This document shows positions 3,524 through 8,477 of a stretch of 64,000 bases of DNA, one piece after another. A program made the position numbers and the translations under genes. The notes beneath the pieces were generated by a model. It was given only the letters and a program-made list of their open reading frames with translations, had not been told where the DNA came from and made no database searches. Source of the DNA: Streptomyces sp. NBC_00286 (GTDB taxonomy: Bacteria; Actinomycetota; Actinomycetes; Streptomycetales; Streptomycetaceae); assembly GCF_036173125.1 (NCBI RefSeq), contig NZ_CP108054.1:7903001-7967000 (forward strand), read 5' to 3'. Position 1 is the first letter of the stretch. Each line of letters opens with the position of its first letter.

Positions 3524-3886
3524 TCAGCGGGGCGTGGCGAGCACTTTGTGCAGGAACTCTGTGAGCGAGTGCGTCGCCGTGTTGTGTGCCGTGGCGGCGA
3601 ACAGTGGGTCCAGGTGGTTCATGCCGTTGTCCGATTCGTAGATTCCGTACGGCACGCGGGAGTTGGCTGCGAGCTTGCGGGCCGCCTCCAGGACCGTGCC
3701 CTTCGCGTAGCTGGTGCCGAAGGCGTAGAGCGGTACATCGATGTCGGTGGCGTGGTGCAGGCGCAGGTCCAGGGAACGGGCGAGGTCGGTGTCGGCGTAG
3801 ACGTCGGCGATGTCGAGGTCCACGGACAGCCGGGCGGGCCAGTACCACTCCCAGACATTACGGGATTCCGCGCATCGGAGGGTTCG
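3524..3886 (-). pseudogene. alpha/beta hydrolase, C-terminal remnant
   Basis: On the minus strand the frame is open from just inside a TGA at 3887-3889 down to a stop at 3524. It reads 'RNVWEWYWPARLSVDLDIADVYAD...VPLYAFGTSYAKGTVLEAA...MNHLDPLFAA...HNTATHSLTEFLHKVL'. This resembles the end of an actinobacterial alpha/beta hydrolase, with the 'EWY-PARL-LD' segment and the terminal HLDPL carrying the expected catalytic His. The nucleophile elbow (G-x-S-x-G) and the whole N-terminal half are absent, and no good start with a ribosome binding site is seen. It is a decayed gene next to the transposase scar. Confidence 0.6.
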
Positions 3887-4061
3887 TCATTTTCGGTCGT
3901 CACCTTGGAAGTTGGGGAGGGAGACGCCACTGGTCTCCACCCTCTCGCGAGCGCCGGGCGGGCCTCGCGCCGGGGTGCCGGGCAGCTCCACCGGGATGAC
4001 CAGGCCCACGGGTCGAATAACCCTTCGAGAAAGCCCACTTGCCGCTGCTACCGTCACCGAC

Positions 4062-4793
4062 GTGGCGAAACTCAATCAGATCATCGCAGTCGAGAAGGGC
4101 GTCAAGGCCAAGTCTCATCAGGACCTGACGGCGGCTCACCATGGGCTGCAGAAGCCTGCCCTGCTGGCCGGTATCTCGCGTACATATCAGCCGAAGGACG
4201 AGGAGGGTGAGCAGTTGCCGCCCGAGTCGACCCGGGTGCAGGTGAAGGCCGAGGATGTGCTGCGGGACACCGCGGCCACCCTGACGCGGCTGTTCGATGT
4301 GACTGCCACCAAGGACTGGGCCAACACCTCGGCCAGGGCGGACATCACCGTCGACGGGCGGGTGCTCGTCGCCGATGTGCCAGTGTCCTATCTGCTGTTC
4401 CTCGAGAAGCAGCTCACCGATCTCAACACCTTTGTACGGAAGCTGCCGGTGCTCGACGCCTCCGAGTCGTGGATGCAGGACCCGTCCACCGACGCCTGGA
4501 AGACCGAGCCGGTCCGGACGCTTCGTACGAAGAAGGTGCCTCGCAACCATGTGAAGGCCGAGGCGACCGACAAGCATCCGGCGCAGGTCGAGGTGTACTA
4601 CGAGGACATACCGGTCGGCTACTGGACGACCGTCAAGTTCTCGGGTGCCCTTCCCGCCCGGCGTGTGAACGAACTGCTCGACCGGGTCGAGAAGTTGCAG
4701 CAGGCCGTCAAGTTCGCCCGGGAAGAGGCGAACGGTGTCGAGGTCGTCGACCAGCGGGTCGGTGACGCCGTGTTCGGCTACCTGTTCGGGTAG
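4062..4793 (+). CDS. conserved hypothetical soluble protein (phage-associated family?)
   Basis: 243 residues, function unknown. GTG at 4062 gives the protein 'MAKLNQIIAVEKGVKAKSHQDL...', which looks like the natural family start; no strong ribosome binding site precedes it. The protein is charged and soluble, with no signal peptide or membrane segment. Blocks such as QKPALLAGISRTYQPKDEEG, VPVSYLLFLEKQLTDL and SGALPARRVNELLDRVEKLQ look strongly conserved. From memory, close relatives occur both in Streptomyces chromosomes and in actinobacteriophages; I could not verify this here. The position between an IS scar and the permuted tRNA-like gene suggests the remains of an integrated element. Confidence 0.75.
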   Translation: MAKLNQIIAVEKGVKAKSHQDLTAAHHGLQKPALLAGISRTYQPKDEEGEQLPPESTRVQVKAEDVLRDTAATLTRLFDVTATKDWANTSARADITVDGRVLVADVPVSYLLFLEKQLTDLNTFVRKLPVLDASESWMQDPSTDAWKTEPVRTLRTKKVPRNHVKAEATDKHPAQVEVYYEDIPVGYWTTVKFSGALPARRVNELLDRVEKLQQAVKFAREEANGVEVVDQRVGDAVFGYLFG

Positions 4794-4971
4794 CCTCAGA
4801 AACTCCCCGGCCATCAGAGCCACCTCGGCCGGGGTGCGCGAGGAGCGCAAAGCTGAAGCTGAGCCTTGTCGTGACTGCGCGGTCCCGGATCGGGAACCGC
4901 GATCAATCTCAGACTATTGCTCCAGACTCAGCATTCGCCGCCGATCGCCGGATCGACCGGGCCCGGGCCCC

Positions 4972-5047
4972 GGACGTCGAAATGCCGGTTCAAGTCCGGC
5001 CCGCACAGCTCGATGTGCGGTGGTCCAAAGGCAGGACGCGGCGACTT
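4972..5047 (+). tRNA. candidate circularly permuted tRNA (3' half upstream of 5' half)
   Basis: A canonical T-arm (GCCGG-TTCAAGT-CCGGC, 4984-5000) is followed by a 7-nt acceptor strand CCGCACA (5001-5007) and G73 (5008). After a 5-nt linker comes TGTGCGG (5014-5020), perfectly complementary to that acceptor strand. Then follow T8-G9, D-stem GTCC/GGAC (5023-5026 and 5034-5037), A14, G18-G19, A21 and base 26. The A-box and B-box consensus are both satisfied, but in reversed order. CGGCG (5039-5043) can pair with CGTCG (4975-4979, one G-U) as the anticodon stem, leaving variable loop AAAT; A15 and U48 can form the Levitt pair. The D-arm resembles tRNA-Gln. The anticodon is not fixed: joining after T5047 and before G4972 would give UUG, but with C instead of U at position 33. 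No encoded CCA. Confidence 0.7.
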
Positions 5048-5105
5048 CAGACTGACCTGGGTCCTCAAGCGTGCCGGCGTGCGACATGGGCGGCAGATCA
5101 GGGCT

Positions 5106-5142
5106 CGGGGGCCGGCTACGCCCCCGGGTCCGCTCCTTTTTT
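5106..5142 (+). terminator. hairpin and T-run downstream of the permuted tRNA
   Basis: CGGGGGC (5106-5112) pairs with GCCCCCG (5120-5126) across a 7-nt loop. A run of six T occurs at 5137-5142, ten bases after the stem. The gap before the T-run is long for a textbook terminator, but it is the only such structure in this region, and it would end a short transcript containing the permuted tRNA. Confidence 0.5.
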
Positions 5143-5465: not shown

Positions 5466-7391
5466 GTGCCCCGCCCCGCCCTTGCCCTGCCTCCCTGGCT
5501 CGCCCATGCGCTGCGCGCCCAGCGGGGACCCGTGCCGTGGAGCGCGGTCGTACGAGGGGCGCTGGCCGCCGGGCCGTTGCTGCTCGTGGCCGTGCTCGTC
5601 GACCGGCCCTCCATCGGAGTCGTGGCCGCCCTCGGCGCCATGCTCGCCGGGACGAACGACCGGCCGGGGAGCAGGCGGGCCTCCATCAAACGGCTCGGGG
5701 TGCCCGCGCTCGCCGGGGCCGGAGGCCTGTTCCTGGGGGCGTACCTCGGGGAGCAGGCCGGAGCGGTGCTGCTGACCCTGGCGCTGACCGGACTCGGTCT
5801 CGTCGGCGGGGCTGTCAGTGCCGTGGGGCCGGTGGCTTCCGGAGCGGGAACGCAGTTGCTGGTCGCGGCTGCCGTGGGCGCCGGGATGCCGTTGCCCGAA
5901 CCAGGCTGGCAGCGCGCCCTGTTCTTCTTCGGCGGCGCGGTCTGGCTGATCGTGCTGCGGCTTGTGCTGCCGACACCCGGGGCCCTGGTCAACGACCTCC
6001 GCGACTTCCGCTTCGACGGGGAGCGGGCAGCCGTGGCCTCCGTGTACGAGGCCGTCGCCGCGCTGCTCGCCGCCGTGGGCGGTGACGACGCCATGGCCCG
6101 GCGTGCCGCGCTGACCGCCGCGCTCGATCACGCGCAGGACGCGCTCGCGGGACCGCGGCTGCGGCGGTACGCCAGTTCCGCGGCCGAACGGCGACTGCGC
6201 GCGCAGTACGCCGCCGCACTGCCCCTCGCCGAGGCCGCGACCGCGCTCGCCTGGTCCGGGGACGCCCTGCCCGCGCGGGCTGCGGACGGGCCGCGACGGC
6301 TCGCCGTGGCCGTACGGACGGGGGAGGCCTGTGGGCCGCTGCCCGCGCCCTCCCGTTCCGTACCGGGTTTGCGGGCCCTCGACGACGCGCTGCTGCACGC
6401 GGCTGAAGCCTTCGACCGGGGCGGCAAGAAGCCCAGCCCCAAGGGTTCCAGCGGGCCCATCGACCTCGGCGCTCAGCTGACCGCCCGCCATGGTCTGCAT
6501 CTACGTCCCGTCCGCGCCAAGGCCCTCCTGCGTACGGTCACCGGCGCCGGAGGCCGCGAGTACGGGCTCCGGGTGGCGCTGAGCTTCGGCGCGAGCGCCG
6601 CCGTCGCACAGGCGCTGCACCATGTGCACTGGTACTGGCTCCCGGCCACCGCCGTCTTCCTCGTCAAGCCCGACCTCGGGCCACTCGTCTCGCGCGTACT
6701 GTGCCGGGCCGCGGGAACCGTCCTCGGCGCGGTCGTGTTCGCCGGGTTCGCCGCGGTACTGCCCGCGCCGGAAGGGCTCGTGGCGCTCGTGGCCGTCAGC
6801 GGGGCCCTGATCCCGGTCGCCCTACGGCACTTCGCCGCCCAGACCGCCGTCATCACCGTGCTGGTGCTCTCGCTCGTCATGGTCGGCGGCGAACCGCAGG
6901 CCTCCTGGAGCCGCATCGGCGAGACGCTGCTGGCCTGCGCGATCGTGCTGCTCGTCGGACATCTGCCGGCACCGGGACAGCGCGGCGGGAACGTACGGGC
7001 CCGCCTGGGGCGTGCGACCGAGGCGGCGCACGCGTACCTGGCGCAGGTGCTCAGCGGCGCCGACGACCGCGCGGCACGCTGGGCCCTGCGCCGCGAGGCC
7101 TACCGGACGCTGGCCGAGGCCCGCGCCGCGATCGACCGCGCCTCCGCCGAACTCCCCACCCTGGCACGGCACACGGAAGGCACCGACGAGGTGGCGGACA
7201 CCCTCGAACGCCTCGTGGACACGACCACCGCATGCGCCGTCCACCTCGACGACACGGGACGGCTCACCCCGCAGCACACCGAACGCATCGCAACTCTGCT
7301 GGACGAACTCGTCGAGCGGCGGGAGCGGGCGGGGCTCACATCGGAGTACGACCGGTTGGGTCCGGGCTCGAGCCTGAACTTGAGTGCCTGA
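5466..7391 (+). CDS. FUSC-family (fusaric acid resistance-like) membrane protein
   Basis: Predicted inner-membrane protein of 641 residues, related to the FUSC/YccS/aromatic-acid exporter family. It has two multi-helix membrane blocks: residues about 25-165 (RGALAAGPLLLVAVLVDRPS...) and about 360-510 (ALSFGASAAVAQALHHVHWYWLPATAVFLV, the FUSC_2-like block). Soluble, mostly helical regions lie between them and at the C-terminus. This two-block layout and length are normal for the family, in which some members export toxic aromatic acids; the substrate here is unknown. GTG at 5466 follows an AGGAG. The gene stands alone, so no partner membrane-fusion or outer component is implied. Confidence 0.8.
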   Translation: MPRPALALPPWLAHALRAQRGPVPWSAVVRGALAAGPLLLVAVLVDRPSIGVVAALGAMLAGTNDRPGSRRASIKRLGVPALAGAGGLFLGAYLGEQAGAVLLTLALTGLGLVGGAVSAVGPVASGAGTQLLVAAAVGAGMPLPEPGWQRALFFFGGAVWLIVLRLVLPTPGALVNDLRDFRFDGERAAVASVYEAVAALLAAVGGDDAMARRAALTAALDHAQDALAGPRLRRYASSAAERRLRAQYAAALPLAEAATALAWSGDALPARAADGPRRLAVAVRTGEACGPLPAPSRSVPGLRALDDALLHAAEAFDRGGKKPSPKGSSGPIDLGAQLTARHGLHLRPVRAKALLRTVTGAGGREYGLRVALSFGASAAVAQALHHVHWYWLPATAVFLVKPDLGPLVSRVLCRAAGTVLGAVVFAGFAAVLPAPEGLVALVAVSGALIPVALRHFAAQTAVITVLVLSLVMVGGEPQASWSRIGETLLACAIVLLVGHLPAPGQRGGNVRARLGRATEAAHAYLAQVLSGADDRAARWALRREAYRTLAEARAAIDRASAELPTLARHTEGTDEVADTLERLVDTTTACAVHLDDTGRLTPQHTERIATLLDELVERRERAGLTSEYDRLGPGSSLNLSA

Positions 7392-7470
7392 TCAGCTCGT
7401 ACGGGTCTGTCTCAGCCTGTACGGACTTGGCTCAGCCTGTACGGACCTGGCTCAGCCTGTACGAACGTGA
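7391..7470. repeat. 20-bp tandem repeat, four units
   Basis: Three close copies of CTCAGCCTGTACGGACYTGG occur at 7411-7430, 7431-7450 and 7451-7470, the last slightly diverged. A more degenerate copy at 7391-7410 begins at the last base of the FUSC stop codon. Directly after, at about 7495-7518, a 10-bp unit (AGGACACGCA) is also repeated. No spacers separate the units, so this is simple tandem duplication, not CRISPR. Confidence 0.8.
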
Positions 7471-7523
7471 CTCAAGGAAGGGCAAGGGAGCGCGAGGACA
7501 CGCAAGGACACGCAAGGAAGCCC

Positions 7524-8477
7524 TCACACCCGTATTCGCGCCCACACCGGAGCATGATCCGAGCCCGCCTCGTCCCGGCGCGCACTCGGATCGTCGCCCA
7601 CCGACGGCAGCGTGGTGACCTCCTGGGCCGGAGCGCCGGTCCCCGCGCCGGTCACATGGTCGAGGAGGAGGCGGCTGACCAGTATGTGGTCGATCAGTTC
7701 GGGGCGGCCGGCGTGCACCCGGGAGAATCGTTGCTTCTCGTCGATGAGCGGGGCGATGTTCCACAGGCGGGACGCGTCGCCCTTGTCGGGGCGCTCGAAG
7801 CCGGGGGTCTTGATCTCGGAACCCGGCGGACCCTGGAGGATCTGGGTCGTGGCGGCGGCGATCTCGTCGTTGAGGTCGCCGAGGACGGCCACGTTCCGCT
7901 CCCGGCCCTTGCCGTCGAGGAACTCGTCGGCGAGCGCGCGCAACGTCGTGGCCTCGGCGGCCCGCCGATAGAGGGCATACGCGCCGTACCGCGCCCGCTC
8001 GCCCTCGTCCCGCGGCTGGAACCGCCCGCCCGGATAGGTCAGCAGCTTCGACTTCAGGTGGCACACCGCCACCGTCAGGGTCATCGCCCCCATGGCGATC
8101 TCCACCGCCAGGAAACCGCGGCCCGTGCGATCCACCGGCTCACCGTCGTCGTCGCCCTGCACGGGCCGCAGTGGTGTGGGGAAGGCGTTCGTGTCGGCCC
8201 GTACCCGTAGTGCGGGGCGGCTGAGGAAGCCGACCCTGATGCCGCGGGGGTCCGGGTGCTCCGAGAGCGCGATGTGCCAGTCGCCGTCCAGCATGTCGGC
8301 CAGATCGCGCAGCGCCGCCGGGTCGCCGACCTCCTGGACACCGAGCAGTGTGGGGTCGAGGTCCGTGATCATCGAGGCCAGGGCGGTGAGCTTCGCCTTG
8401 TACGCGTCCTCGTTCCTCGGTCCGAACCGGCCGCCGGGCCGGTACAGGTTCTCCAGATTCCAGGTGCCGAGAAGCAT
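7524..8477 (-). CDS. endonuclease/exonuclease/phosphatase (EEP) family protein
   Basis: Metal-dependent phosphoesterase fold of 317 residues. Family signatures are in order: WNLENLY near the start (the metal-binding Asn), GVQEVGD at about 45-51 (catalytic Glu), a CHLKSK strand, LGDLND mid-protein (Asp/Asn pair), and SDHAPVWARI at the end (Asp/His pair). All expected active-site residues are present. Substrate could be a nucleic acid or a phospho-metabolite. The start at 8477 is chosen over upstream in-frame codons because AGGAG sits just before it. No signal peptide, so probably cytoplasmic. It is convergent with the FUSC gene and divergent from the amidohydrolase. Confidence 0.85.
   Translation of the reverse strand: MLLGTWNLENLYRPGGRFGPRNEDAYKAKLTALASMITDLDPTLLGVQEVGDPAALRDLADMLDGDWHIALSEHPDPRGIRVGFLSRPALRVRADTNAFPTPLRPVQGDDDGEPVDRTGRGFLAVEIAMGAMTLTVAVCHLKSKLLTYPGGRFQPRDEGERARYGAYALYRRAAEATTLRALADEFLDGKGRERNVAVLGDLNDEIAAATTQILQGPPGSEIKTPGFERPDKGDASRLWNIAPLIDEKQRFSRVHAGRPELIDHILVSRLLLDHVTGAGTGAPAQEVTTLPSVGDDPSARRDEAGSDHAPVWARIRV

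Follow-up and report, generated by a model that had tools for sequence, protein, structure and literature searches.

What is a tRNA-like element with its halves in reversed order doing in an unannotated gap of a Streptomyces chromosome? The stretch of DNA analysed here, hereafter the window, covers 64 kb of Streptomyces sp. NBC_00286 (genome G000 among the relatives compared), and at 4972-5047 a first-pass annotation described a circularly permuted tRNA gene, whose T arm and 3' acceptor strand precede a short linker, the 5' acceptor strand and the D arm. This circularly permuted tRNA-like element is real, as confirmed below, and it belongs to a conserved RNA that seems to act as a tRNA mimic instead of decoding. 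The best explanation of the site is that it is part of a structured RNA, with an estimated length of about 270-300 nt, which lies directly 3' of a gene encoding a protein of the DUF7873 family (Table 1). An unannotated gap and a protein family with no assigned function are thereby turned into a defined protein-RNA pair, which Streptomyces shares with phages whose hosts are actinobacteria, proteobacteria and cyanobacteria.

Table 1. Features of the DUF7873 gene and of the RNA downstream of it (positions in the window)
Feature	Position	Strand	Basis
Gene for the DUF7873 (PF25283) protein; TAG stop at 4791-4793, start codon inferred	4053..4793	+	Pfam
GC-rich hairpin CTCCCCGGCC ... GGCCGGGG, between DUF7873 stop and RNA	4803..4834	+	sequence; by eye in relatives
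Module 1: rod 1 with plain-hairpin cap	4851..4932	+	window fold, landmarks, comparison with relatives
Outer strands of rod 1	about 4851-4878 and 4905-4932	+	
Plain hairpin capping rod 1; permuted head here in many relatives	about 4877-4905	+	
Motif TATTGCTCCA in rod 1	4915-4924	+	
Rod 2, 5' strand	4937..4970	+	consensus structure, 29 sequences
Module 2 head: permuted tRNA domain	4975..5043	+	finder; covariation, 32 sequences
Anticodon-position stem, 3' strand CGTCG	4975-4979	+	read from sequence
Head T arm	4984-5000	+	read from sequence
Head 3' acceptor strand	5001-5007	+	read from sequence
Loop GCTCGA closing the acceptor: G73 plus the 5-nt linker of the first-pass annotation	5008-5013	+	
Head 5' acceptor strand	5014-5020	+	read from sequence
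T8	5021	+	read from sequence
Head D arm	5023-5037	+	read from sequence
Anticodon-position stem, 5' strand CGGCG	5039-5043	+	read from sequence
Rod 2, 3' strand	5055..5094	+	consensus structure, 29 sequences
CTCAAGCG, corresponding to motif CTTAAACG in other copies; rod 2, 3' strand	5064-5071	+	landmarks; viral motif counts
Intrinsic-terminator-like hairpin (5101-5131) and T tail	5101..5141	+	

A permuted head conserved by covariation

The stems of the head can be read in the permuted order that the first-pass annotation reported, with all seven of its acceptor pairs and with matches to both the A-box and the B-box consensus. When its two halves are rotated and joined, ARAGORN draws a full cloverleaf, whose anticodon is a product of the join and has no meaning. 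A head finder that requires a T stem and loop, an acceptor stem, T8, a D stem whose loop contains GG, and 5 bp of outer stem matches this site alone on the two strands of the window; 20 dinucleotide shuffles of its + strand yield no match. Together with the pairing kept in homologues, this bears out the earlier opinion that chance could hardly bring so many elements together. ARAGORN calls no ordinary tRNA anywhere in the window, nor does any Rfam model reach its gathering threshold there; with a relaxed threshold, Rfam returns seven unrelated matches on the stretch, the best at E 0.67. Since the folding energy of 4825-5100 is ordinary (z -0.76, with 39 of 200 shuffles folding at least as well), it is conservation and covariation that make the case for the head.

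When 4900-5140 served as a DNA query, 31 of 61 relatives matched, the window's own genome counted, among which G001 and G006 have fragmentary matches only, without DUF7873, while each of the remaining 29 carries at least one head according to the finder. Loss of acceptor or anticodon-position pairing in homologues was what the first-pass annotation had named as evidence against itself. In an alignment of 32 second heads (29 distinct rows, 21 pairs) the permuted order is kept, and pairing is standard in 598 of 598 pair cells, 127 of which are altered on both sides; none of 500 shuffles reaches either figure. Two-sided change affects 15 of the 21 pairs, a number attained by 3 of 500 shuffles, and these shuffle counts are not probabilities because the aligned sequences are related. 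Sliding the partner strand lowers pairing to 34-50%. Each of the four head stems shows compensatory change: those of the D and T arms, the acceptor stem (two-sided in six of its seven pairs) and the outer, anticodon-position stem CGGCG/CGTCG (two-sided in three of five pairs), which had been proposed from the window sequence.

Beyond the head, an RNAalifold consensus of 29 sequences extends its outer ends into a second helix, rod 2, with 22 pairs, 12 of them showing two-sided changes and some broken in up to 9 of the 29 rows. This consensus omits the 5-bp anticodon-position stem, which was counted in the separate head alignment. The outer ends of the head form no 7-nt anticodon loop, their strands running on into rod 2 instead. 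Among nine single-sequence folds, several show heads on rods, most clearly a Klebsiella phage copy (L072), and others do so only partly.

The RNA accompanies DUF7873 genes

The protein encoded immediately upstream scores 402.9 bits against the DUF7873 (PF25283) Pfam model, for a cut-off of 27. Its structure is predicted with high confidence, but no solved structure is clearly related to it, so the fold gives no proof of RNA binding. DUF7873 occurs in 32 of the 61 relatives, that is, the 29 genomes above plus G044, G047 and G010, and in all 32 the finder detects a head near the gene.

For a wider view, we took the best-scoring 80 of at least 578 cellular DUF7873 sequences (79 from records named Streptomyces, one from an 'Actinobacteria bacterium') and the best-scoring 80 of 341 viral ones, samples that are top scorers and no random draw, the Streptomyces loci being closely related to each other. 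With heads overlapping ARAGORN calls taken out, a head lies within 900 nt downstream of the gene, on the same strand, in 80/80 loci of the cellular set (best 80 of at least 578) and 63/80 of the viral one (best 80 of 341), against backgrounds of 0 finder matches in 809,556 strand-nt of the same cellular loci, 6 in 795,652 strand-nt of the same viral loci, and 0 in 795,010 nt of shuffled downstream stretches. The six viral matches (L171, L199 twice, L207 and L215 twice) were counted as background, and some of them may be further or shifted copies. No head was found in 17 of the 80 viral loci by the strict finder and in 15 by a relaxed one.

As for the distribution of the family, a sequence search gave 7275 relatives among 7998 scored candidates; those among the matches listed are mostly from Streptomyces and also include Nostoc and a Kofleriaceae bacterium. 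DUF7873 was present in 3 of 149 genomes sampled across the phylum, all Streptomyces and the window's own included, and, among 14 control genomes, in Deinobacterium chartae. Both heads are present in Nonomuraea gerenzanensis. On a plasmid of S. flavofungini (L041, a 160-kb record, 7116-8236), DUF7873 and the RNA are close to transposase genes.

Two modules, two heads

In its full form, the RNA consists of two tandem modules, each a long helix with an internal-loop motif and a permuted-tRNA cap that has a closing loop at its acceptor end. Many relatives thus carry another permuted head, on a rod of its own, upstream of the main one. A plain hairpin takes the place of this first head in the window (from its fold) and in L006, L012 and L016 (by eye), and in L007 the site is shortened (by eye). 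With ARAGORN-overlapping heads kept, the strict finder sees two heads in 50 and one in 30 of the 80 Streptomyces-side loci, and two in 26, one in 37 and none in 17 of the viral loci, for which the relaxed finder gives 41, 24 and 15, respectively. The two heads differ: in 79 of 91 two-head loci (relaxed finder) the D stem has 3 bp in the upstream head and 4 bp in the downstream one.

The rods carry short motifs, which are candidate protein sites. Beside the last head of the 63 viral loci that have one, TTAAAC occurs in 32 (1.7 expected), AATCGA in 23 (1.2) and TCGCTC in 20 (0.7). A separate observation, made by eye, is that the strands of rod 1 (4851-4932 in the window, and relatives) alternate K/R and L/V/F/I codons in many copies, phages included; no shared frame or stop was apparent across copies for this pattern.

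This architecture bears on what the first-pass annotation thought the element was for, namely a true permuted tRNA gene, whose transcript would be circularised or joined, then cut, to yield a decoding tRNA. All head stems, both boxes and the tertiary positions are indeed there, the rotated and joined halves do fold as a tRNA, and the genome encodes RtcB (a whole match at C1:7200604). Yet the absence of an anticodon loop, with ends passing into a covarying rod, tells against excision, circularisation or joining, and so do the presence of two heads on one RNA in most Streptomyces-side loci and the replacement of the first head by a plain hairpin, which would be odd for such a function. We therefore regard a decoding tRNA as very improbable. 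A further RtcB match of this genome (C1:5833745-5834850) is split into two pieces that lie in different frames.

Even less probable, to the point of being nearly negligible, is that the locus is what remains of two tRNA genes in tandem, both without their outer half. The idea draws on ARAGORN, which makes ordinary-order calls in 36 of the 80 Streptomyces-side loci (on the + strand in 34 of them), so that deleting the heads overlapping these calls costs 33 loci their second head. In the loci inspected, the calls combine the T arm of head 1 with upstream sequence, once with a mismatched acceptor stem; their anticodon varies by locus and they conflict on it (gaa, gag, none), and we judge them spurious. 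No ordinary tRNA is found by ARAGORN in the window, L001, L014 or L024. Moreover, the outer strands of the head pair with each other and covary, and the arrangement accompanies DUF7873 in Streptomyces and also in Klebsiella and cyanobacterial phages; neither observation suits a relic. A genuine tandem does mimic the pattern: two tRNA-Asn genes of the window's genome (L057, C1:7106700-7108800, at 981-1132) look like a permuted tRNA, reach 39.8 bits with RF02553 (the Rfam model for YrlA, a bacterial Y RNA) and can mislead similar searches. A third RNA, suspected at a further site in many Streptomyces from RF02553 scores of about 40 bits, was discarded because in G000, the one genome where ARAGORN was applied to it, it is this tRNA-Asn pair.

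Relation to Y RNAs and other permuted tRNAs

Whether bacteria have such elements at all was left uncertain by the first-pass annotation, and here there is a precedent: the same strand order is known from YrlA, which superposes on tRNA with a circular permutation (PMC11472068; PMC8394870). The YrlA head is modified by DusA and TruB while its stem holds the Ro60 protein Rsr (PMC8394870), and YrlA has been suggested to act as a decoy against an anticodon nuclease (PMC7790460). The window RNA resembles YrlA (RF02553; PDB 6CU1) in that its tRNA-like head is permuted in order and its D, T and acceptor arms stand on a basal stem made of the outer strands. Unlike YrlA, it sits beside DUF7873 and not beside Ro60 (rsr), and the DUF7873-linked RNA often has two different heads on one molecule. 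Permuted tRNA mimics are already known in bacteria as Y RNAs, and what seems new is the DUF7873-linked, two-headed form away from Ro60. Neither that form nor a DUF7873-linked RNA was found in the open-licence PMC literature searched (Chen 2014, Wang 2018, and Sim and Wolin 2018 lie outside this scope), where the name 'DUF7873' does not occur.

Other parallels are looser. In the permuted tRNA genes of algae and Thermofilum, the 3' half is encoded before the 5' half (PMC3978253, PMC4033280), as in the window head, which differs from them in having no anticodon loop and ends that enter a conserved rod. Phages carry an RNA-binding Ro60/TROVE protein with a tRNA-like partner RNA (PMC7824862), similarly pairing a phage protein gene with a tRNA-like RNA, except that the protein here, DUF7873, belongs to a separate Pfam family, for which structural comparison showed no clear relative.

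The likeness to YrlA raises a rival reading, that the RNA serves a TROVE protein (Ro60, Rsr) encoded elsewhere in the genome and that DUF7873 is an accessory, which we consider rather unlikely. The topology of the head is that of a Y RNA, and G000 has a TROVE gene (C1:8001279), 93 kb from the RNA. This gene is immediately preceded by two permuted heads (L056, C1:7996500-8006500, at 3544-3616 and 3796-3866) that are probably Ro60-linked Y RNAs. The rods of these RNAs look different by eye, and TROVE does not track DUF7873 closely: in 41 genomes it is found in 18/25 with DUF7873, leaving 7 without a TROVE match, vs 9/16 without DUF7873. Scores with RF02553 cut both ways. The gathering score (69 bits) is reached in none of the 41 genomes. 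Below it are matches to Ro60-linked RNAs, to the DUF7873-linked RNA of several relatives (e.g. 38.7 bits, E 1.9e-6, in G023) and to the tRNA-Asn pair of G000, and because of this last match sub-threshold scores alone are no proof. Matches at E <= 1 also occur in 11 of 14 control genomes, and those of G000 at E <= 1 with stricter filters do not include the window RNA.

Could the heads be opened and charged?

In permuted two-piece tmRNA, a 3' acceptor half, a loop and a 5' acceptor half follow one another, and a helix replaces the anticodon stem. The window head shares this order of acceptor halves and the helix at the anticodon stem; the DUF7873-linked RNA departs from it by a full D stem, two heads and no tag frame found; by eye, no frame or stop was seen to be kept across copies. 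The window has no match to the tmRNA model RF00023 at gathering, none of the seven matches in G000 lies at the RNA site, and an ordinary tmRNA is encoded elsewhere in that genome (179.2 bits).

A reading with some likeness to this is that RNase P and 3' processing cut the acceptor loop, leaving CCA-ended, two-piece tRNA-like heads that might even be aminoacylated. It rests on A73 and on the exact position of CCA in part of the copies. Among first heads, which have the 3-bp D stem, A73 is present in 46 of 50 from the Streptomyces side and in 34 of 59 from viruses. CCA is encoded exactly after position 73 in 9 of the 50 and 20 of the 59, where chance would give about 1/64; at the same chance level, 18 of 47 viral second heads carry it. 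Acceptor pairing is also complete (7/7) in nearly every head listed. On the other hand, second heads on the Streptomyces side never have CCA (CTC in 67 and CTT in 13 of 80), CCA could be mere tRNA ancestry, no conserved tag-like frame was seen by eye, and the genome has its own ordinary tmRNA. We hold opened heads to be unlikely overall, while giving them more credit than the other rivals considered here.

A proposed tRNA-mimic RNP and its phage copies

The explanation that we favour, as probable although far from assured, is that the two-module tRNA-mimic RNA and DUF7873 form an RNP spread over bacteria and phages, the heads of which tether or decoy tRNA-binding enzymes. By analogy with YrlA, where the head is modified and the stem holds Rsr, the rods would hold DUF7873 and the heads would engage such enzymes. 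The resulting particle would work like the Ro60-Y RNA particle, without Ro60. Displaying the elbow and acceptor arm of a tRNA and no anticodon, the heads could attract (i) modification enzymes, (ii) nucleases, (iii) RNase P or (iv) PNPase, either to tether them or as a decoy. We likewise lean towards viewing DUF7873 and its RNA as a new tRNA-mimic RNP, parallel to and independent of the Ro60-Y RNA system, with two different heads on one RNA that may be CCA-matured and charged, and shared by actinobacteria and phages of very different hosts. If this is true, circularly permuted tRNA mimicry reaches beyond the partners of Ro60, and DUF7873 gains a functional hypothesis that can be tested.

Phages offer a further hint. 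DUF7873 was found in 73 of 50,697 annotated phage records, and in nine of ten that were inspected a head lies downstream of the gene, with hosts ranging from Gordonia to Klebsiella, Rhizobium, Vibrio and Pseudanabaena. A Microcoleus phage (L071) has no permuted head directly downstream of DUF7873 (3730-4190); by eye, an ordinary-order tRNA-like stretch seems to stand there instead. Annotated tRNA genes fall within the displayed stretch in seven of the ten records, a setting that suggests a phage tool directed at tRNA metabolism; placed amid tRNA genes, the RNP may serve in their handling or in tRNA protection. Near such annotated tRNA genes, the DUF7873 genes of L066-L069 and L073-L075 are annotated as hypothetical, and each is followed by a gap bearing the RNA, the heads of which carry no RNA annotation.
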